From: Nitrospira sp.
GTDB taxonomy: Bacteria > Nitrospirota > Nitrospiria > Nitrospirales > Nitrospiraceae
Direction of reading: 5' to 3'
DNA: 10,000 nucleotides
Assembly (NCBI GenBank): GCA_020216985.1
Contig: JAIWOH010000203.1
Span: 1 to 10,000, forward strand
Positions 1,296-10,000 of this stretch are shown here, piece by piece. The position numbers and the translations under genes were made by a program. The notes below the pieces were generated by a model. That model was not told where the DNA came from and made no database searches. It was given only the letters and a program-made list of their open reading frames with translations. How positions within the stretch are numbered: the first letter of the stretch is position 1; every line of letters starts with the position of its first letter.

Positions 1296-1640
1296 CTAAC
1301 GAACAATTGGCTGGATCTCTCGGTCCATGACAAACACAAAAATCCGCTCGCTGATCGGCACGTTGATATCGGTGAACACCGAGAGAATGCGAGCGCCGGT
1401 GATCTCACTTAACCGCTCGCACAGTCGTTCACGCCCCTGCGCGAACAAATTCTCCCTGAGCCGCTTTACCATCTCCACACCTTCTGGCGTTTTGGCTAGT
1501 TGGCGCTCGGCCGGGGTCAGGATTCCTTTTAACCGAACAACCACGAGATCCCGCACAATAAACGCCCGGACCTCATCCGGCCCTCTTCCCATAAATTCTT
1601 GCTCGAACTTGATGACAGCGTTTCGAATGGCGTTTTCCAT
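1296..1640 (-). CDS. DUF2294 (MpsC-like) small protein
   Basis: This 114-residue protein matches the DUF2294 pattern: an N-terminal helix ending in FMGRGPDEVRAFIVRDLVVV, then LKGILTPAERQLA, a long helix with MVKRLRENLFAQGRERL, and a final strand pair TGARILSVFTDI...ERIFVFVM. No signal peptide or membrane segment is seen, so it is probably cytoplasmic. Pfam names the family MpsC because it is linked with MpsA (NuoL-like) and MpsB (DUF2309) in staphylococci, where mpsAB supports membrane potential and inorganic carbon supply; the biochemical role of DUF2294 itself is unknown. The start was set at the ATG at 1640 because the conserved domain begins there; a longer in-frame extension to 1781 has no family character. 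The ribosome binding site is weak, in line with a predicted transcript start only about ten bases upstream. A DUF2309 gene lies at 7247 in this window, which makes a functional link plausible but unproven. Confidence 0.82.
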   Translation of the reverse strand: MENAIRNAVIKFEQEFMGRGPDEVRAFIVRDLVVVRLKGILTPAERQLAKTPEGVEMVKRLRENLFAQGRERLCERLSEITGARILSVFTDINVPISERIFVFVMDREIQPIVR

Positions 1641-1982: not shown

Positions 1983-2036
1983 TTCGCAAGGCCATATCCA
2001 CCCCACCAGCCTCCGGTCAATCTGAATGTGGCGATC

Positions 2037-3089
2037 ATGTCACATCGTAACGTGGCAATGTGGAGATACCGACACAGGTTATTCAAACTGAAGGGCCTGG
2101 CAACGGGGCTTTTTTTCCTGTTAGGCATGGGGTCCCCGGCAATGGCCGTGCCACCCAATGTCGGCTGGTCGGTCACCGGCGGAGGCTCATTGTTCTACAC
2201 GGATGACGCCGCGCTCTTTTCAGCCACCCGCCGATCGAGTCTGGATGGCGATCCATCGCAACCTGTCTTGGACATCTCTCGGACCGGCATCGGCAAGGAC
2301 ATGGTCTTTGAGCCATACATCCGCGTCTCGAAGCTGCTTCCATCTTCATTTGGAGAAACGGAGCTTTCGGCAAGGGTTCGCGGATTTGTCTATGCGAAAA
2401 ACCCGGAGTTTAGCCAAGGCTCGATGTATCTCGAAGCCATCCACGGCTTCACGCCCCAGACAATCCTCAGACTCCGGTACTTTACCGCCCCCGACCAACT
2501 GCTTGGACAGACCGAACTGCATGGATTCGACCATGATCTCCAGGACATGCGTGTCACTTCTCATTTGGGTACCGTCCGACTGGATCAGCGTCTCTCGGAA
2601 CATTGGGAACTCCAATTGCTCGGACGTGTTGGGATTCGCCGCTTCAATGATCCATTTGCCCATCGGGATACCTTCTTGTGGCGGATCGGGCCACATCTCT
2701 TGTATCACGTCAACCACCATGCGAGGGTGATTCTGGGCTATCACTATGAACAGGGTCTTGCTGAAGGACGCCATGAAATCGAGCTTCATGATGATGTTTC
2801 TTATAAGCATCACTTCGCGTCCGTTGGCCTCGAGATGGACCTTTTGGAACATTTGGAGCTTGAACTGGACTTCCATTACGAGCGCAACAATTTCACTACC
2901 AGCGACCCTGAGGACGAGCGGTTTGACGGCCACGAAAACATTTTCATCGGAAGCGGCAGGCTTTCCCTGCAGGTGACCGACCATGCCGCCCTGACCCTCA
3001 CGGTTCAACGATCCAATCGCAACCAGAATTTTCACCAGACGCATGACCATAACACCAACGTCTCGCTGGGAGTGATCTATCGTTTTTGA
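2037..3089 (+). CDS. Histidine-rich outer-membrane beta-barrel protein, function unknown
   Basis: The protein has about 350 residues. A basic N-terminus (RYRHRLFKLKG) is followed by a hydrophobic stretch LATGLFFLLGMG and an SPAMA cleavage site before VPPNVGW, a typical signal peptide. The mature part consists of alternating polar/hydrophobic strands with aromatic girdles (for example LRLRYFTAPDQ, RVILGYHYEQG, LELELDFHYERN) separated by polar loops, and it ends in SLGVIYRF with a C-terminal Phe, the usual signal for the BAM complex. It is therefore very probably an outer-membrane barrel. Histidine is unusually frequent (HH at three places, HQTHDHN near the end). I do not recognise a named family. 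Start choice is uncertain: GTG 2028, ATG 2037 and ATG 2058 are all in frame with weak ribosome binding sites; 2058 would give the most ordinary signal peptide length. A lipoprotein gene follows 141 bases later on the same strand. Confidence 0.8.
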   Translation: MSHRNVAMWRYRHRLFKLKGLATGLFFLLGMGSPAMAVPPNVGWSVTGGGSLFYTDDAALFSATRRSSLDGDPSQPVLDISRTGIGKDMVFEPYIRVSKLLPSSFGETELSARVRGFVYAKNPEFSQGSMYLEAIHGFTPQTILRLRYFTAPDQLLGQTELHGFDHDLQDMRVTSHLGTVRLDQRLSEHWELQLLGRVGIRRFNDPFAHRDTFLWRIGPHLLYHVNHHARVILGYHYEQGLAEGRHEIELHDDVSYKHHFASVGLEMDLLEHLELELDFHYERNNFTTSDPEDERFDGHENIFIGSGRLSLQVTDHAALTLTVQRSNRNQNFHQTHDHNTNVSLGVIYRF

Positions 3090-3230
3090 CCACCACCTGC
3101 GCGCTGGAGGCTGAGCCGTGAGCGATTGTGAAGATGGAGACCGACGTTGTGAAACACATGGTTGTGTCTGAGAATCAGATCTTGAAATACGGGAACATGG
3201 GCTTCTGACACCTTCAACAGGGGCTTGGTG
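3090..3230. other. Short intergenic spacer between barrel and lipoprotein genes
   Basis: The spacer holds no clear terminator or promoter. A small ACACA-tgg-TTGTGT hairpin is present around 3157-3170, and a 24-codon ATG frame that starts in the first half of the spacer has no convincing ribosome binding site. AGGGG at 3219-3223 serves the following gene. The two genes may share a transcript. Confidence 0.4.
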
Positions 3231-3854
3231 GTGGCAATGATGCTCCGCAGCAACAATCCTCCCCTTCACGACCTCCGGAGGAGTGCCTCGTTTAGAACGC
3301 TGGCGCTCTTGGTTCTCTGTTGCTCGCTCATGGCCTGCCATCGCACATTTGGCATTCCTAGAGACATCGTGCGTGACCTTCCCGCTTTGGCGTCCGTTCG
3401 CACCATTTATATCGAGGACCTGACCCATGGCGAAGATCCTCACCTCGTGGAAGGCTCCGATCTCGCCAAAGAAAAGATCCGGCAAAAGCTGACCCAGTCG
3501 GGTCGTTTCGTGGTGGTGGATCGTCCGGACCGGGCCGATGCCCTGTTAACAGGCGTCGCCGGTTTCCAACGGTGGTACTTTGGGATGGAAAGTTTCTTTG
3601 GATTAGAGGGCAGCCTCAACACCCAATATGCAGGGATCGGCATGGTTCGCCTGCTCGATGCGGCCACCAAACGACCCATCTGGACCCACGAATATGAGAC
3701 GGGTCTGTTCCACCCGACCCAACCGGTGGTGGACCGAGTCGCCGACCAGATAGCCGAACAGCTATTGGCTGATGCGTCTTCGGCGGCACGATCCTCCACT
3801 CCCCTTCCCTCTCCCCCCTTCATCAACAAAGAACCAGCCGAACCCACCCGGTAG
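3231..3854 (+). CDS. Lipoprotein with CsgG/TolB-N-like domain
   Basis: The protein has about 207 residues. The hydrophobic stretch TLALLVLCCSL leads to a lipobox LMAC with the modified Cys at residue 36, so it should be an outer-membrane or inner-membrane-anchored lipoprotein. The mature part follows the pattern seen in CsgG, TolB-N and related periplasmic lipoproteins: a first strand SVRTIYIEDL, a helix DLAKEKIRQKLTQSG, a strand RFVVVDRPDRADALLTG, a Gly/aromatic linker, GMVRLLDAATKRPIWTHEYETG, and a last helix VVDRVADQIAEQLLAD. A Pro/Ser-rich tail follows and is probably disordered. Such domains often assemble with outer-membrane proteins, which suits the barrel gene just upstream. The AGGGG at 3219-3223 best fits a GTG start at 3231; TTG 3225, GTG 3228 and ATG 3237 are alternatives. 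The exact family is not certain. Confidence 0.75.
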   Translation: MAMMLRSNNPPLHDLRRSASFRTLALLVLCCSLMACHRTFGIPRDIVRDLPALASVRTIYIEDLTHGEDPHLVEGSDLAKEKIRQKLTQSGRFVVVDRPDRADALLTGVAGFQRWYFGMESFFGLEGSLNTQYAGIGMVRLLDAATKRPIWTHEYETGLFHPTQPVVDRVADQIAEQLLADASSAARSSTPLPSPPFINKEPAEPTR

Positions 3855-4182: not shown

Positions 4183-5886
4183 ATGACGACACCCACCCCG
4201 CTCCCACTCGACAGGCCATCCGGAGCAGAGATGCCTGAAGGAACGTTGGAGGGAATGAAGCGGTATCTCCGTTACGATCTCCTTTCGGGATTCCTCGTGT
4301 TCCTCATCGCACTGCCGCTCTGCTTGGGCATTTCTCTCGCCTGCGGCTATCCGGCGATCGCCGGAATCTTCACGGCGATCATCGGTGGGATTGTCGGCGC
4401 CACCATGAGCAACTCGGAACTCACCATCAAGGGCCCCGCGGCGGGGCTCATCGTCATCGCCATCGGCTGTGTGACCGAGTTCGGGTTTACAGCCGGCGCC
4501 AATCCGGACGCCGACTACCAAGCTTATCGTCTCGCCTTGGGCGTTGGTGTAGCGGCAGGCCTTGTTCAGATTTTCTTCGGAGTCTTCCGGGCAGGCATCC
4601 TGGCCGAGTTGGTCCCGACGTCCGTCATTCACGGCATGCTGGCAGCCATCGGCATCATTATCATCGCCAAACAGTTTCCGATCATGATGGGACTGAGCGC
4701 CAAAGGCGAACCCTTGGAATTGCTTATGGAAATTCCCACATTCGTGATGGAGATGAACCCTGAAATTGGGTTCATTGGACTGATGAGTCTCGCCATCCTG
4801 GCGTCCTATCCATACATCAAGAGCAGCGCACTCAAAAAGTTCCCCGCTCCGTTGATCGTGCTCATGATTGCCATCCCGCTGGAATTCTACTTCGACTTGG
4901 ACCACCCCCATGCCTATACCTTCAACCACCACGAATATCAGGTGGGACCCAATTATCTGGTCAATGTTCCGCTCAGTATGATCAGCGCCATGGCGTTCCC
5001 TGATTTCTCCGGTGTGTTCACGGGAACAGGCATGAAATACGTGATTTTATTCGCTCTAATCGGCAGTCTGGAAAGCCTGTTGAGTGCCAAAGCCGTCGAA
5101 GTCTTTGACCCTTGGAAGCGAAAAGCAAACCTAGACCGCGATCTCACGGCTGTCGGCATTGGGAATACCGTCGCCGCTCTAATCGGCGGCTTGCCCATGA
5201 TTTCGGAAATCGTGCGCAGCAAAGCAAATGTGGACAACGGCGCCCGCACCAGGTTCGCCAACTTTTATCATGGCATGTTTCTGTTGCTTTTCGTGGCTCT
5301 TCTTCCGGGGCTCCTCAACGAAATTCCGCTGGCCGCGCTGGCCGCTATGCTGGTCATCACGGGTTTTCGCTTGGCCGCGCCGGCGGAATTTGTGCATGTG
5401 TATCACGTCGGTAAAGAACAGTTGCTGATTTTCTTGTCCACCGTCGTGGGGGTACTGACCATCGATCTGCTGGCCGGTATCGCGATCGGAATCGTGGTCA
5501 ACATCCTTGTGCACCTCGTGAACGGAGCATCACCGGCCTCCTTGTTCCGATTGCATCATGAAGAGCGCCCTGCTCCGGACGGTTCGGTGCGCCTTTCGGT
5601 CAAACATGCCGCGATTTTTCCCACGTGGATTACTCTGCGCCGCAAGCTTCATGAGCATTTTCAGACACATTCCCGCGTCGAGCTTGACTTGTCAGAGACC
5701 CGCCTGGTCGATCACACCGTCATGTCACGACTACAGGAGATGCAAGCGGATCTAGCTGAAAAAAATCAGGAGCTGATGATTTCTGGACTCGATGGCCACC
5801 AACCGCTCTCGAGCCATAAAGCGGCGGCAAGGAAAAAGAACTGGAGCAAATCAGCCTCATCCAATAAATCGACCTCTCTCCACTAA
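4183..5886 (+). CDS. SulP-family anion (probable bicarbonate) transporter with C-terminal STAS domain
   Basis: This is a 567-residue inner-membrane SulP/SLC26 transporter. The membrane part begins with DLLSGFLVFLIALPLCLGIS (residues 32-51), continues with the TM3 region KGPAAGLIVIAIG from residue 83, and includes GLPMISEIVRSKANVDNGARTRFANFYHG, a hallmark of the SulP clade often found beside or fused to carbonic anhydrases. A short STAS domain follows, with VELDLSETRLVDHTVMSRLQ from residue 499, and then a Lys/Ser-rich tail. SulP proteins carry bicarbonate (as BicA does), sulfate or other anions, often with Na+ or H+; the substrate cannot be read from sequence, but the adjacent carbonic anhydrase and DabA genes favour bicarbonate. 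The ATG at 4183 is chosen because AAGGCAGG (4170-4177) precedes it; the upstream in-frame GTG at 4123 lies inside the terminator stem and has no ribosome binding site. No obvious terminator follows the gene. Confidence 0.93.
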   Translation: MTTPTPLPLDRPSGAEMPEGTLEGMKRYLRYDLLSGFLVFLIALPLCLGISLACGYPAIAGIFTAIIGGIVGATMSNSELTIKGPAAGLIVIAIGCVTEFGFTAGANPDADYQAYRLALGVGVAAGLVQIFFGVFRAGILAELVPTSVIHGMLAAIGIIIIAKQFPIMMGLSAKGEPLELLMEIPTFVMEMNPEIGFIGLMSLAILASYPYIKSSALKKFPAPLIVLMIAIPLEFYFDLDHPHAYTFNHHEYQVGPNYLVNVPLSMISAMAFPDFSGVFTGTGMKYVILFALIGSLESLLSAKAVEVFDPWKRKANLDRDLTAVGIGNTVAALIGGLPMISEIVRSKANVDNGARTRFANFYHGMFLLLFVALLPGLLNEIPLAALAAMLVITGFRLAAPAEFVHVYHVGKEQLLIFLSTVVGVLTIDLLAGIAIGIVVNILVHLVNGASPASLFRLHHEERPAPDGSVRLSVKHAAIFPTWITLRRKLHEHFQTHSRVELDLSETRLVDHTVMSRLQEMQADLAEKNQELMISGLDGHQPLSSHKAAARKKNWSKSASSNKSTSLH

Positions 5887-6134
5887 GATTTTTCTCGGCG
5901 TTCTTCCTCTCAATCTTTTTTTCCTTCATTATTGCGCCTATAATTAATTTAAATACATGATTTGATTTCGCTAAATTGTATTGCCTTTCGATAATTCACC
6001 CATGCTTGCCTTTTATGTTCTCATGCGCCTTGCAAGGGAAAAATCTGGCCCATTATTTGCTTTTTACTTTTAAGATGTGCTCTTGTTTTTTAGGCAAATT
6101 GATCCGTTTATCGTATAAACTGTCGAGAAACAAG
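5887..6134 (+). promoter_or_regulatory. AT-rich intergenic region with candidate promoter for the carbonic anhydrase gene
   Basis: The region is clearly richer in A and T than its surroundings. A perfect TATAAT at 5939-5944 has no good -35 box at the usual distance; a second -10-like TATAAA lies near 6115-6120, just before the gene. T-runs near 5915-5922 lack a convincing preceding stem, so a terminator for the transporter gene is not supported. The reading frame of the next gene is open back to 5976, but that extension (Cys/Phe-rich) precedes a clean signal peptide and is rejected. Confidence 0.4.
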
Positions 6135-7025
6135 ATGAAAAATACGGCTGTGTTCCTGGCGGCATTCCTCGCGGTTCCTTCTCTGGCCCTTGCAGAAGTG
6201 CCACAGCACACTGAAACATGTGTGGCGGCTAAGCAGGATGACATTGCGGCCTTATTTGACCGATGGAACGAGTCACTTAAGACTGGCAATCCGCAGAAAG
6301 TGGTCGCAAACTATGCGGAAAAGTCCGTGCTGCTTCCAACCTTATCCAGTAAGGCTCGCTTTACCCCTCAGGAAAAAGAAGACTACTTTCATCATTTCCT
6401 TGAAAATCAACCCGAAGGGCGCATTGACTCCCGTACGATCGAACTCGATTGCAACACGGCTATCGACGAAGGTCTCTACTCGTTTGTTTTCAAGAAGACC
6501 GGGGCGGTCGCAAAGGCCCGCTATACCTTCACCTACAAATGGGACGGTAAACAGTGGCTGATCACAAGCCACCATTCATCAACGTTGCCATCCGAGCAAA
6601 CCCCTTTGGACGAGCCCGTGAATGCCGTTGCGCAGCACGAGGAGGTGTGTGTGGCGGTCAGTGAAAAGGATATCGACGCATTGCTGGAACGATGGAAGGA
6701 TTCCATTCAAAGCGGCAATCCCCACAGAGTGATGACCCACTATGCCCCAAAATCTATGCTGCTTCCACTCTCCTCGACCAAGCCGCGGTTAACGCTCGAT
6801 GAGAAAGAAGAATACTTCCGTCATTTCCTCAAGAACAAACCGCTGGTGCACATCAAATCTCACACAATTGAACTGGACTGCAACACAGCTATTAACGAAG
6901 GGTTTTATTCGTACACCTTTCAGAAAACCGGAGCCATCGTCAACGCTCGCTACAGCATGGTCTTCAAGTGGGATGGTCTCCAATGGTTGATTACGAGCCA
7001 TCATTCATCCGTCTTTCCGAACTAG
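6135..7025 (+). CDS. Exported tandem-domain iota-class carbonic anhydrase candidate
   Basis: This 296-residue protein has a clean signal peptide (MKNTAVFLAAFLAVPSLALA, cleavage after residue 20), so the mature enzyme should be periplasmic. It consists of two copies of a SnoaL-like/CaMKII-association domain (residues 27-153 and 170-296). Each copy has the order C-V-A, RW, GNP, Y-A, LLP, YF-HFL, IELDCNTAI, EG-YS, KTGA, ARY, KWDG-QWLITSHHSS. The terminal HHSS (146-149 and 289-292) is the signature reported for iota-class carbonic anhydrases, first known from diatom LCIP63 and also found in bacteria as COG4337; some are metal-free. Expected reaction: CO2 + H2O to bicarbonate + H+. Domain 1 has LLPT (T69) where domain 2 has LLPL, a possible active-site difference. 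Each copy also has two Cys 77 residues apart (29/106 and 172/249), possibly a disulfide. The start is the ATG at 6135 because the signal peptide begins there. It lies between a SulP transporter and a DabA gene. Related DUF4440-type proteins with other functions are the main alternative. Confidence 0.84.
   Translation: MKNTAVFLAAFLAVPSLALAEVPQHTETCVAAKQDDIAALFDRWNESLKTGNPQKVVANYAEKSVLLPTLSSKARFTPQEKEDYFHHFLENQPEGRIDSRTIELDCNTAIDEGLYSFVFKKTGAVAKARYTFTYKWDGKQWLITSHHSSTLPSEQTPLDEPVNAVAQHEEVCVAVSEKDIDALLERWKDSIQSGNPHRVMTHYAPKSMLLPLSSTKPRLTLDEKEEYFRHFLKNKPLVHIKSHTIELDCNTAINEGFYSYTFQKTGAIVNARYSMVFKWDGLQWLITSHHSSVFPN
6213..7022 (+). repeat. Internal duplication: two 127-residue domain copies
   Basis: Residues 27-153 and 170-296 of the exported carbonic anhydrase candidate align without any gap at a constant offset of 143 residues. 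By hand count 75 of 127 positions are identical (about 59%). The 16-residue linker between them is Pro/Glu-rich. Confidence 0.9.
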
Positions 7026-7062
7026 GAGTCCTGTTTGATGAAAGGTTGCTTATCGGCCTTCC

Positions 7063-7075
7063 GAAGGAGGTGACC
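7063..7075 (+). other. Orphan, near-perfect anti-16S (Shine-Dalgarno) sequence
   Basis: GAAGGAGGTGACC is almost fully complementary to the usual 3' end of 16S rRNA, far stronger than any ribosome binding site used in this window. No start codon lies at a normal distance downstream: the only GTG overlaps it and its frame stops after five codons; the next ATG (7122) is about 47 bases away and opens a 23-codon frame. Confidence 0.45.
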
Positions 7076-7097
7076 AAGACCCCTTAAATCTCAGGAA

Positions 7098-7123
7098 ATC
7101 CGACTTATCAAAAATATTCGGAT
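7098..7123. promoter_or_regulatory. Dyad ATCCGA-N14-TCGGAT upstream of the dabA promoter
   Basis: Two perfect 6-base inverted arms at 7098-7103 and 7118-7123 flank an AT-rich core and end 8 bases before the -35 hexamer at 7132. The position suits an activator or repressor site. The arms could also form a weak hairpin at the 3' end of the preceding transcript. Confidence 0.4.
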
Positions 7124-7131
7124 GAAAATTA

Positions 7132-7162
7132 TTGACATCCTGCCCCATTGGAGCGCTAGAAT
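7132..7162 (+). promoter_or_regulatory. Sigma70-type promoter for dabA
   Basis: A perfect TTGACA at 7132-7137 is followed, after 19 bases, by TAGAAT at 7157-7162 (five of six matches). The spacer is a little long. Transcription would start near 7169, about 78 bases before the dabA start codon, so dabA probably has its own promoter separate from the carbonic anhydrase gene. Confidence 0.6.
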
Positions 7163-7173
7163 GCGTCCCCATT

Positions 7174-7205
7174 GTTGCCTTTGCCTTCGGTGAAGCAAAG
7201 GCAAC
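7174..7205 (+). promoter_or_regulatory. Perfect 11-bp stem-loop at the 5' end of the dabA message
   Basis: GTTGCCTTTGC (7174-7184) and GCAAAGGCAAC (7195-7205) form a perfect 11-bp stem with a 10-base loop. No T-run follows, so it is not an intrinsic terminator. It begins about five bases after the predicted transcript start, a position where hairpins often protect mRNA from decay or form part of a control element. Confidence 0.55.
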
Positions 7206-7246
7206 CGAGGCCGTAGTTACACCTTGTGGGGGGACATCGACCTCCG

Positions 7247-10000
7247 ATGGATGAATCACAAATCGAGAGCGGGTCTTCAAGCAAAGCGAGTTCTTCTCCT
7301 CCCCACCCTTCAGGCTTCATCAACGAGGAAGAGCGACAACGTCTTCGCTCCAAAGTCGCACATGCTGCCGAGCTGCTGCATGAGCAGGGACCGATCAGCA
7401 CGTTTGTTCATACCAATCCCCTCCATAGTCTTGAGTACCTCCCTTTTGACCAGGCGGTAGCAACCGCCGAACGATTGCTCGGCGGACGCGGATATTTGCC
7501 GAACGAAGAGTTCCGCCGGCTTTATCGCCAGGGCCGCATTACCGACCGCGATCTGACCGAAGCACTCGCCTCATGGCGATCCGACGAAGCATTGGACGGA
7601 GTCATTGTTGAGGACGACCGAATCATTCGATTGCAGGATGTGGCCCGTCTACAACTATTATATGGCGTCGAACCGCTAGATCCGGCCCACCTTTCCTGGC
7701 AAGTTCATCGCGAAGGAGCGACAAGACGCCTTCGTCCCGATTTGCCCGCCGACGTCAAAACCGCCATTTTAACCAAAGCCGCGAGCGAGCTTCGCCTGAG
7801 TTTAGATCGAATCGGTCGTGAGTGGACACTGGCGGAATGGGTGCAAGTCCATTGTCATATCGATCTTCCCGGCCGCGTGCGCAAACAACTCCTCCAGGAA
7901 TTCGGCTCCGGCGCCAAGACTGTGCACGGGCACTCAGATACGTCGACTGCCGTTCAGTTGGAGCGCTGGTTCGCGTCTCTGGAGATTCCTCCTGAACGAC
8001 GAGAGGGATACCGTCGCTGTATCAATCGGCACCTGTATAACATCGGCCTCTTTTCAACGACGCTTCAACTGATCCTACAAACTCGATGGCTGCAATTGGA
8101 GTGTGAATTCCTGCGAGAGGTCGTTCCTCGTCATCTTGGCGTACATGGGACATATACCGGCATTCGAGCGGGCTGCGAGCAGCATGTGGAGGCCTACGCG
8201 ACCATCAGTCTTTGGCATGCCGCGCTGGCCGCACGCGGATTGGATGATCCGCTCTCTCCCTCCGATCCGGAAACACTCATCGAAAACGATTGTCTCGCCG
8301 CGCGGCGGGATGCCCTTTATCGCCGCATTCTCGCCGTTGAGCGGGACGGAGGAGCGCCTCTGCCCCTCACGGCTGAGATTCGTACCGCCATCGAGGAAGA
8401 ACTGAATTCCGTGGGACGCCAACGGCAGCGGCGCCGAGCCATCCTCTTTGGCATCATTCGTCCCCGCCAAACCGGCGACTCTCATCACGACCTTCCGCCT
8501 CTCACCTTGACGGCGAACGCGGAGTCCAGGTTAAGAAAACTGCGCCAGGGCGATATCAGCTCGCCGGCCGGCCTTGTACGGATCTTAGGGGAACTTCGCG
8601 TGCGCGGAGGATTCGACTGGCACACCTGGAAACAGATCTGCGATCGACCTTTGTTCATCAACCCATCCGTCAGTGCCGAAGAGGAACCGTGGAGGAACTT
8701 TCTCAGAAACCATGTGCGGGTTCGGATCACGGATACCATCCGGTCGTCCATCCAAACCGAATTCTCCTCCCCTAAAGTCGATCTTCGAGCTGAAGAACGC
8801 CGTATCCGCATCCTTGGCGGGCTGACCGATGAAGGATTGACGCTCACGGCGTGGGAAGCCTTACAAGAAGAGGTGAACGAGTGGGACGGCGCTCTGCTGG
8901 CGGACCATTCTTACGACGATCTTGAAGCCACGCTTTGCCGAACCGTCCGAGAAGGGCTCCGTGAGACGGAGTTGACTCGGTCCGCCTACGATGCGCTCCG
9001 ACGCTTGCTCGAGCACCGCAACAGAATCTTCGCCTGTCGTCAGTTGCTCGCGGATCTCCACCATTTCGATCCCCGCGAGCGGCTCGTCAGACATTCCCGC
9101 GAAGATTTAACCGCCACGATGGAACGTGTCGGCCACAGCTTGACGCTGAGCGAGCTCTTGCACGACATCACCGGCGTCGACATTGCGGAATGCGTCAACC
9201 GGTATATGATCAAGTGGTGCGGAGCCTTTCTCGATCAAGGCATCGCCGGTTGGTCCATGCCATATCGACAGTTGGGCTTTTATCGCGCATGGAGAAAGCT
9301 GGCCACCGAGGAACTCTCGTTGGGGCTCGGAGAAGTGGACGGCTGGCACGAAGCCGTGCTCAATCTGCCCGAACGGCCGGAAGACTGCCTTCTCCACACG
9401 CTGCGCTCGCTGCAGATTCCCGAGCAGCATCATGCCCCCTACTTGACTCGACGTTTGCTCAAGCTGTCCGGATGGGCCGCGCTGGTGAAGTGGCGTGAAC
9501 ACCATCCCCTGCACTTCAAACAGATTGAGGAACACATCGATCTGGTCGAGTATCTGGCCGTCCGTTTATTTTGCGAATCAATGCTGATCAAGCGGGCTTG
9601 CCGAGAGATATGGGGACTTGAGGGGACGGTTCCCAAGCTCCATGATTTACATCGCGACCATCCCTACGAATTCTACCTGCGACGCGAGTTCTTCCGAGGA
9701 GGACTCCCCGACTATTTGGAATCCCGCTGTCGATTCTTGTTGCACGCAAATCCACAGAGCAATCGAGATCGATGGATTCGAACGGCGGAAATGGTCTGGA
9801 AATATCGGCAGGCCACCGCTTTGGGGCGGGACCCGCTCCCCACGGCCTGTCAACATGCCTGGCGGCTTTTTCACTTGAGCCAACTCCTTGGGCTCTCCGC
9901 AGGAAACCTGCGAAAGCTTTCGCCCAGTGACGGAGATCGTTTGCTGGCGATGCTCGATAAATTTCCTTCCTCCGCCCATGGGCCGATTTGGCAGGCCGCC
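7247..10000 (+). CDS. dabA: DUF2309 protein (DabA/MpsB family), inorganic carbon accumulation, 3' end outside window
   Basis: An uninterrupted frame of 918 codons runs from the ATG at 7247 to the window end. Family landmarks are the N-terminal FVHTNPLHSLEYLPFDQA (about residues 53-70), GGRGYLPNEEFRRLYRQGRI, and later FLDQGIAGWSMPYRQLGFYRAWR (LDQG at 662-665), GWAALVKWREHHPL and EYLAVRLFCE. DabA is a zinc-dependent, beta-carbonic-anhydrase-like subunit on the cytoplasmic face. With the NuoL-like membrane partner DabB it couples cation flow to one-way CO2 hydration. The zinc residues, in the motif around CIDVRSE and the later His/Cys, are not reached within 918 residues, although they come near residue 351 in the 830-residue Halothiobacillus protein. 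The excess lies mainly between about residues 150 and 620, an Arg/Glu-rich helical stretch of unknown role, so this is a long-form member. The first 35 residues are Ser/Pro-rich and probably disordered. No strong Shine-Dalgarno precedes the ATG (only GACCTCCG); the start is set by the family N-terminus. DabB is not in the window. Confidence 0.88.
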   Translation, partial: MDESQIESGSSSKASSSPPHPSGFINEEERQRLRSKVAHAAELLHEQGPISTFVHTNPLHSLEYLPFDQAVATAERLLGGRGYLPNEEFRRLYRQGRITDRDLTEALASWRSDEALDGVIVEDDRIIRLQDVARLQLLYGVEPLDPAHLSWQVHREGATRRLRPDLPADVKTAILTKAASELRLSLDRIGREWTLAEWVQVHCHIDLPGRVRKQLLQEFGSGAKTVHGHSDTSTAVQLERWFASLEIPPERREGYRRCINRHLYNIGLFSTTLQLILQTRWLQLECEFLREVVPRHLGVHGTYTGIRAGCEQHVEAYATISLWHAALAARGLDDPLSPSDPETLIENDCLAARRDALYRRILAVERDGGAPLPLTAEIRTAIEEELNSVGRQRQRRRAILFGIIRPRQTGDSHHDLPPLTLTANAESRLRKLRQGDISSPAGLVRILGELRVRGGFDWHTWKQICDRPLFINPSVSAEEEPWRNFLRNHVRVRITDTIRSSIQTEFSSPKVDLRAEERRIRILGGLTDEGLTLTAWEALQEEVNEWDGALLADHSYDDLEATLCRTVREGLRETELTRSAYDALRRLLEHRNRIFACRQLLADLHHFDPRERLVRHSREDLTATMERVGHSLTLSELLHDITGVDIAECVNRYMIKWCGAFLDQGIAGWSMPYRQLGFYRAWRKLATEELSLGLGEVDGWHEAVLNLPERPEDCLLHTLRSLQIPEQHHAPYLTRRLLKLSGWAALVKWREHHPLHFKQIEEHIDLVEYLAVRLFCESMLIKRACREIWGLEGTVPKLHDLHRDHPYEFYLRREFFRGGLPDYLESRCRFLLHANPQSNRDRWIRTAEMVWKYRQATALGRDPLPTACQHAWRLFHLSQLLGLSAGNLRKLSPSDGDRLLAMLDKFPSSAHGPIWQAA

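Follow-up and report, generated by a model that had tools for sequence, protein, structure and literature searches.

A candidate modular inorganic-carbon uptake island of Nitrospira with a SulP transporter, an exported iota-carbonic-anhydrase-like protein and a long divergent DabA

Nitrospira are major nitrifiers, and to our knowledge the way in which they gather CO2 and bicarbonate is poorly worked out. The locus described here raises the question whether three neighboring genes cooperate in this task: an earlier note on the same DNA had proposed a carbon-capture cluster composed of a bicarbonate-importing SulP transporter of the BicA type, an exported iota-carbonic anhydrase and a DabA/DabB pair. 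The window, i.e. the whole stretch of 10,000 nucleotides that was analysed, represents the entire contig C135 of the metagenome-assembled genome (MAG) G000 (222 contigs, 2.26 Mb, 87% complete). Pfam recovers a SulP transporter, a CaMKII_AD protein (CA) and a member of the DabA family in this order on the plus strand, exactly as the note had stated (Table 1).

Table 1. Features of the window with their positions, strand and supporting evidence
Feature	Position	Strand	Evidence and remarks
SelO protein adenylyltransferase gene	1-1281	minus	adjoins the island in several relatives too
MpsC family gene at the left island border	1296..1640	minus	PF10057, 116 bits (cut-off 23)
Outer-membrane beta-barrel-like protein (OMP)	2028..3089	plus	PF13505, 22.8 bits, under the cut-off of 28.7
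Putative lipoprotein (LP)	3225..3854	plus	lipobox read by eye; no match in Pfam
SulP-family transporter	4183..5886	plus	PF00916 (Sulfate_transp), 181 bits (cut-off 23.2); STAS_2 below cut-off
Exported tandem-domain iota-carbonic-anhydrase-like protein (CA), predicted	6135..7025	plus	CaMKII_AD, 80 bits (cut-off 22.1)
CA domain 1	6234..6590	plus	LLPT, DYF and HHSS present
CA domain 2	6672..7013	plus	HHSS present; LLPL replaces LLPT
Promoter-like pair TTGACA-19-TAGAAT upstream of dabA	7132..7162	plus	sequence alignment
Long divergent DabA	7226..10000, running on into C136:1-1605	plus	PF10070, 199 bits in the window (cut-off 25)
Insertion of ~420 residues specific to long DabA	7673..8950, borders approximate	plus	alignment with canonical Nitrospira DabA

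The three genes are kept together in five other Nitrospira MAGs and are strictly adjacent in three of them. The complete order OMP-LP-SulP-CA-DabA is present in L020 (same locus as L096; genome G139), L024 (same locus as L097) and L023 (same locus as L178; G164), where the OMP is cut by the contig end. L027 (same locus as L090; G105) harbors the same genes, with a sensor kinase, a response regulator (names read from the sequences) and one ORF separating SulP from CA. In G140, three ORFs lie between SulP and CA, which share contig C29 with the first piece of DabA, while the remainder of DabA is located on C17. All nine long-DabA loci that were examined (L020-L028) stem from Nitrospira MAGs, and the upstream order is visible in four of them; the contig starts inside CA, followed by DabA, in L021 and L025, and at or inside DabA in L022, L026 and L028. 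The order of the trio is contradicted neither by any of these nine loci nor by G140. The OMP co-occurs with the lipoprotein, SulP and CA: its orthologues are found in L020, L023, L024 and L027 and also in L101 beside a canonical dab operon, and lipoprotein orthologues are present in the same five loci and in L107. MpsC and the OMP-LP pair are parts of the same conserved site. The dN/dS values of the SulP, CA, DabA and OMP genes range from 0.037 to 0.116 (11 comparisons), and since the neighborhood is conserved and these values are low, the trio is not a chance assembly.

The site itself is bordered by SelO/MpsC on one side and by DUF2490-ArfB-TPR-FabI on the other, and it is not reserved for the trio. 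We retrieved nine canonical loci in which CA adjoins a canonical DabA (L091, L092, L093, L094, L095, L100, L101, L102 and L103), and tblastn located DabB, a NuoM/N-like gene, DabA, PII and one or two CA genes in all of them. MpsC borders all nine and DUF2490 eight, the exception being L093 from another genus. The borders, the CA family and a DabA gene are thus common to the canonical operon (e.g. L091, L092) and the window, whereas the one or two DabB, the NuoM/N-like protein and PII belong to the former, whose DabA is only 37-39% identical to long DabA over the aligned columns. Intermediate arrangements exist: L101 combines a canonical dab operon with the OMP-LP pair, and G105 (L089/L090) unites two DabB, a NuoM/N-like gene, DabA and PII with the subsequent OMP-LP-SulP-CA-long DabA series in one site. 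A gene for the bicarbonate transporter SbtA is inserted between MpsC and OMP in L020 (3217-4443, corresponding to L096 9515-10741; PF05982, 314 bits); SbtA is present in two of the 12 genomes searched, and the search did not find it in G000. In G087, a SulP with 73% identity occupies the space between MpsC and ArfB/FabI, with no CA or DabA there. A different dab locus, in which DabA, NuoL, NuoM and SulP stand together, was found in L169 (4158-13696), L170 (2901-12659) and L171 (5049-14732); the NuoL-like gene is full-size in all three, and the locus of L169 adjoins MpsC and SelO. The SulP proteins of these loci are 39-41% identical to that of the window and represent a second SulP orthogroup beside DabA. 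Judged by its gene neighborhood, the window probably carries one variant of a modular Nitrospira island for the uptake of inorganic carbon. This reading is mainly founded on the replacement and joining of carbon-uptake families at one site, and it bears out the carbon-handling role and the conserved linkage that the earlier note had proposed. A fixed site where DabB-DabA, SbtA, SulP, exported carbonic anhydrase and PII swap or join provides a direct list of testable genes. The border is also reminiscent of the staphylococcal MpsABC system, whose MpsB is a DabA; its MpsC homologue borders the window island, but on the opposite strand and with MpsA/DabB absent at the locus.

Among 147 genomes of the family, the DabA query matches 130, CA 21 and SulP 13 (E <= 1e-90), and nine of the 13 SulP matches are at least 73% identical. 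Of the 21 genomes with CA, 15 have it near DabA, i.e. within about 10 kb or on a contig with DabA at its end (G000, G035, G041, G050, G096, G100, G105, G111, G121, G128, G137, G139, G140, G141 and G142), a count that does not amount to 15 independent events because the genomes are related. The insertion of long DabA has matches in nine of 79 genomes of the genus, and the CA profile in 16 of 295 genomes of the phylum, 13 of these in the family of Nitrospira. Several observations count against the island reading. CA stands apart from DabA in six of the 21 genomes: G070, G117, where CA lies at the site and DabA on another contig, and G087, G042, G082 and G112, whose CA are single-domain forms. 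G070 (L173, L174; 2.0 Mb, a member of the genus) contains CA and SulP and no DabA match despite 99% completeness, and SulP occurs without the trio in G087 and G103 as well.

The CaMKII_AD protein has a signal peptide predicted by eye (residues 1-20) and two Pfam domains at residues 34-152 and 180-293; SnoaL_3 and DUF4440 likewise exceed their cut-offs. A PDB profile search matched 3h51 (E 1.3e-37) and the iota-carbonic anhydrase 7c5x (E 6.2e-18) and nothing further at E <= 0.001. The best folds for the predicted model (mean pLDDT 78) are 7c5y and 7c5x, followed by 3h51; the TM-scores by query length are only 0.35-0.37, which we put down to domain orientation in the model. The protein is accordingly predicted to consist of CaMKII_AD/NTF2-like domains with the iota-carbonic-anhydrase fold. 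LLPT, YF and HHSS, which we take to be the active-site residues of iota-carbonic anhydrases, are kept in domain 1 of all 16 aligned proteins (LLPT/LLAT, YF, HHSS). In domain 2 several relatives carry DHSS where the window has HHSS, and second CA copies in other genomes possess LLPT and HHSS in both domains. Tandem NTF2-like domains and the HHSS motif are shared with 7c5x and 7c5y, but the latter exhibit three aligned repeats instead of two domains, and the LLPT threonine is lost in domain 2 of the window protein, unlike in iota-carbonic anhydrases; its activity is putative. This loss and the closest solved relative, 3h51, whose title gives no proven function, also weigh on the island reading. 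Together with the many NTF2-like folds that match the model, they would fit a binding protein of the NTF2-like type that has no carbonic anhydrase activity. We regard this as unlikely in view of the iota-carbonic anhydrase as best fold and second profile match, the motifs kept throughout domain 1 and the location beside DabA in 15 of the 21 genomes.

The SulP transporter has its best solved relative in 6ki1 (E 3.7e-23), which we take to be the BicA membrane domain, although the PDB entry names a low affinity sulfate transporter. Membership in the BicA type, as assumed in the earlier note, was not borne out: the protein scores below the cut-offs of all three NCBIfam models that it matched, with 122 bits for the BicA equivalog versus a cut-off of 880. 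The presumed Na+-site residues of BicA (D258, T262, G300, A301 and T302) correspond to E297, S301, S341, E342 and I343, of which none is identical and two are conservative. The identification as BicA was rejected on this score and these residues, and the failure counts against the island reading; the protein shares the SulP family with BicA, whose membrane domain is its best solved relative. The same data would suit a transporter of sulfate or another anion that is a neighbor by history and stands outside carbon uptake, as would its presence in G070 and G103, where it is unaccompanied by DabA, and in G087, where neither CA nor DabA is nearby. Such a role is a possibility of some weight, but we judge it the less probable one, because SulP resides inside the carbon island in the window, L020, L023, L024, L027 and G140, occupies the same site alone in G087 and has a counterpart of a second orthogroup adjoining DabA in L169-L171. 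The company of its genes suggests that the imported anion is probably bicarbonate. The window also differs from SulP-carbonic-anhydrase fusions in that its CA is a separate, putatively exported protein.

The DabA frame comprises 1,459 codons when the window and C136 are joined and counted from GTG 7226, but ATG 7247 appears to be the likelier start. PF10070 scores 637 bits on the C136 part (cut-off 25), and relatives encode the protein as a single piece, e.g. L020 with 96.5% identity over residues 2-1459. Relative to canonical Nitrospira DabA, an insertion of ~420 residues lies near the N-terminus of the protein, and ~85 residues are missing from the central part of its C-terminal half; judged from the alignment, long DabA is a divergent paralog of canonical DabA. 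A predicted model of its first 925 residues (mean pLDDT 50) was set aside. DabA2 (9rd0) was the only sequence matched in the solved-structure search, and its residues C351, D353, H524 and C539 (positions counted in 9rd0), which we take to be catalytic, correspond to C959, D961, H1149 and C1164 in the numbering of the joined frame, all beyond the end of the window. They are identical in L096, whose orthologue shows 96% identity, and in the joined frame the motifs lie at 958, 1148 and 1162. Long DabA thus resembles the DAB complex in its family and in the four catalytic residues, but differs in the insertion, the missing residues and the lack of an adjacent DabB; the partner of DabA2 is DabB2.

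A functionless, decaying copy might be suspected from the absence of DabB next to long DabA and from the frame of G141 (L161 9311-13677), which is in pieces. This MAG has a coverage of only 1.66, and frames of 1,441-1,463 codons are present in L020, L023, L024 and L027; the dabA stretch of L024, omitted from one alignment, holds one stop, after which a 1,452-codon ORF starts. The dN/dS values of 0.094 versus L020, 0.105 versus L024 and 0.087 versus L027 document purifying selection, on which ground a pseudogene was rejected. Together with the full frame of the window and the retained catalytic residues they make decay highly improbable. In a small unrooted FastTree phylogeny, long DabA groups with the DabA of L169, L170 and L171 with a support of 1.0 (25 rows, gene-called proteins >850 aa only, including the duplicates L090/L027, L096/L020, L178/L023 and L097/L024).

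The search for a DabB partner at the locus, which the earlier note had suggested looking for among the genes past position 10,000, yielded no tblastn match to canonical DabB on C133, C134, C135, C136 and C137 (threshold E 1e-8 and 45 bits), and a hidden DabB near the window locus was rejected at this threshold. A DabB profile scored 481-1146 bits in G128, G105, G111, G127 and G117, indicative of true DabB, and in G000, G139, G141, G140 and G070 it retrieved only NuoL-grade matches of at most 287 bits. Since its seven rows represent one DabB type, DabB of the L169 type (35-36% identical) could hide among the NuoL-grade scores. The NuoL copies of G000 were rejected as DabB candidates, with 284 and 213 bits versus 481-1146 for true DabB, and its ten PF00361 matches appear by eye to form two complex-I sets and a third, Hyf-like one. 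The lack of an adjacent DabB and of any detected one in G000, G139, G140 and G141 counts against the island reading.

Does long DabA then work alone? G140 (99% complete, 3% contamination) contains only long DabA, with no DabB detected by the profile; on its contig C16, two pieces of the flanks of the G111 locus are separated by 4.3 kb with no dab genes in between, an observation that is only suggestive because the third flank piece sits on another contig. The grouping of long DabA with the DabA of SulP-bearing loci and the purifying selection seen when the window is compared with L020, neither of which has a detected DabB, point in the same direction. Activity without DabB, with the ~420 extra residues, the neighboring SulP or a complex-I NuoL as substitute, is nevertheless rather unlikely. 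DabB is encoded beside the genome-mates of long DabA in G105, G111 and G127, NuoL-like genes are part of the L169-type loci, and the profile covers one DabB type. Moreover, the G111 dab locus and its flanks are absent among the matches listed for G000 and G139 (40 of 50 and 40 of 63 candidates scored); with G000 being 87% complete, the DabB of both genomes may be unassembled. G141 contains a second DabA, cut by the contig start. The specific proposal that Nitrospira possesses a second, DabB-independent CO2-trapping protein, i.e. a long DabA that exchanged ~85 residues for the ~420-residue insertion and works with SulP and the exported iota-type CA without its own NuoL-type proton channel, is slightly more doubtful still. 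Were long DabA active in the absence of DabB, the notion of a proton-channel partner as a requirement of DabA would have to be revised.

We consider it probable that the locus is a modular carbon island of Nitrospira in which the exported CA, an anion-importing SulP and long DabA with a separately encoded DabB-type partner act jointly. The tandem iota-CA-like protein would equilibrate CO2 and bicarbonate in the periplasm, SulP would import an anion, probably bicarbonate, and at the inner side of the membrane long DabA would turn CO2 into bicarbonate by hydration, its partner presumably being a DabB-type membrane protein encoded away from the locus. The cluster proposed in the earlier note accordingly stands with respect to its gene set, conservation and carbon-uptake site, and lacks support with respect to BicA membership and an adjacent DabB. 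Of the outcomes that the note had named as counting against its proposal, the absence of DabB near dabA holds, whereas a lack of conserved gene order does not.

The region upstream of dabA contains a promoter-like pair, whose TTGACA is kept in five of seven aligned sequences, window counted. A promoter scan of the window listed none, its spacer limit being 18 and the spacer of the pair 19. The gene may have its own promoter, and the trio as one operon is thus not established, a further point against the island reading. A long perfect hairpin at 7174-7205 folds well in the window (z -2.6) but is not conserved among the aligned relatives, and Rfam has no matches in the window; a conserved RNA element upstream of dabA was rejected on these grounds. 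About 8 kb after dabA, a second SulP is fused to a beta-carbonic anhydrase (L007 9599-10000 into L008 1-1848; Pro_CA 115 bits), the frame of this fusion being split in L162 (G139) and L178 (G164). Finally, dS between the window and L020 amounts to 0.18 for DabA but to 0.49 for the neighboring SulP, a gap that may point to recombination.
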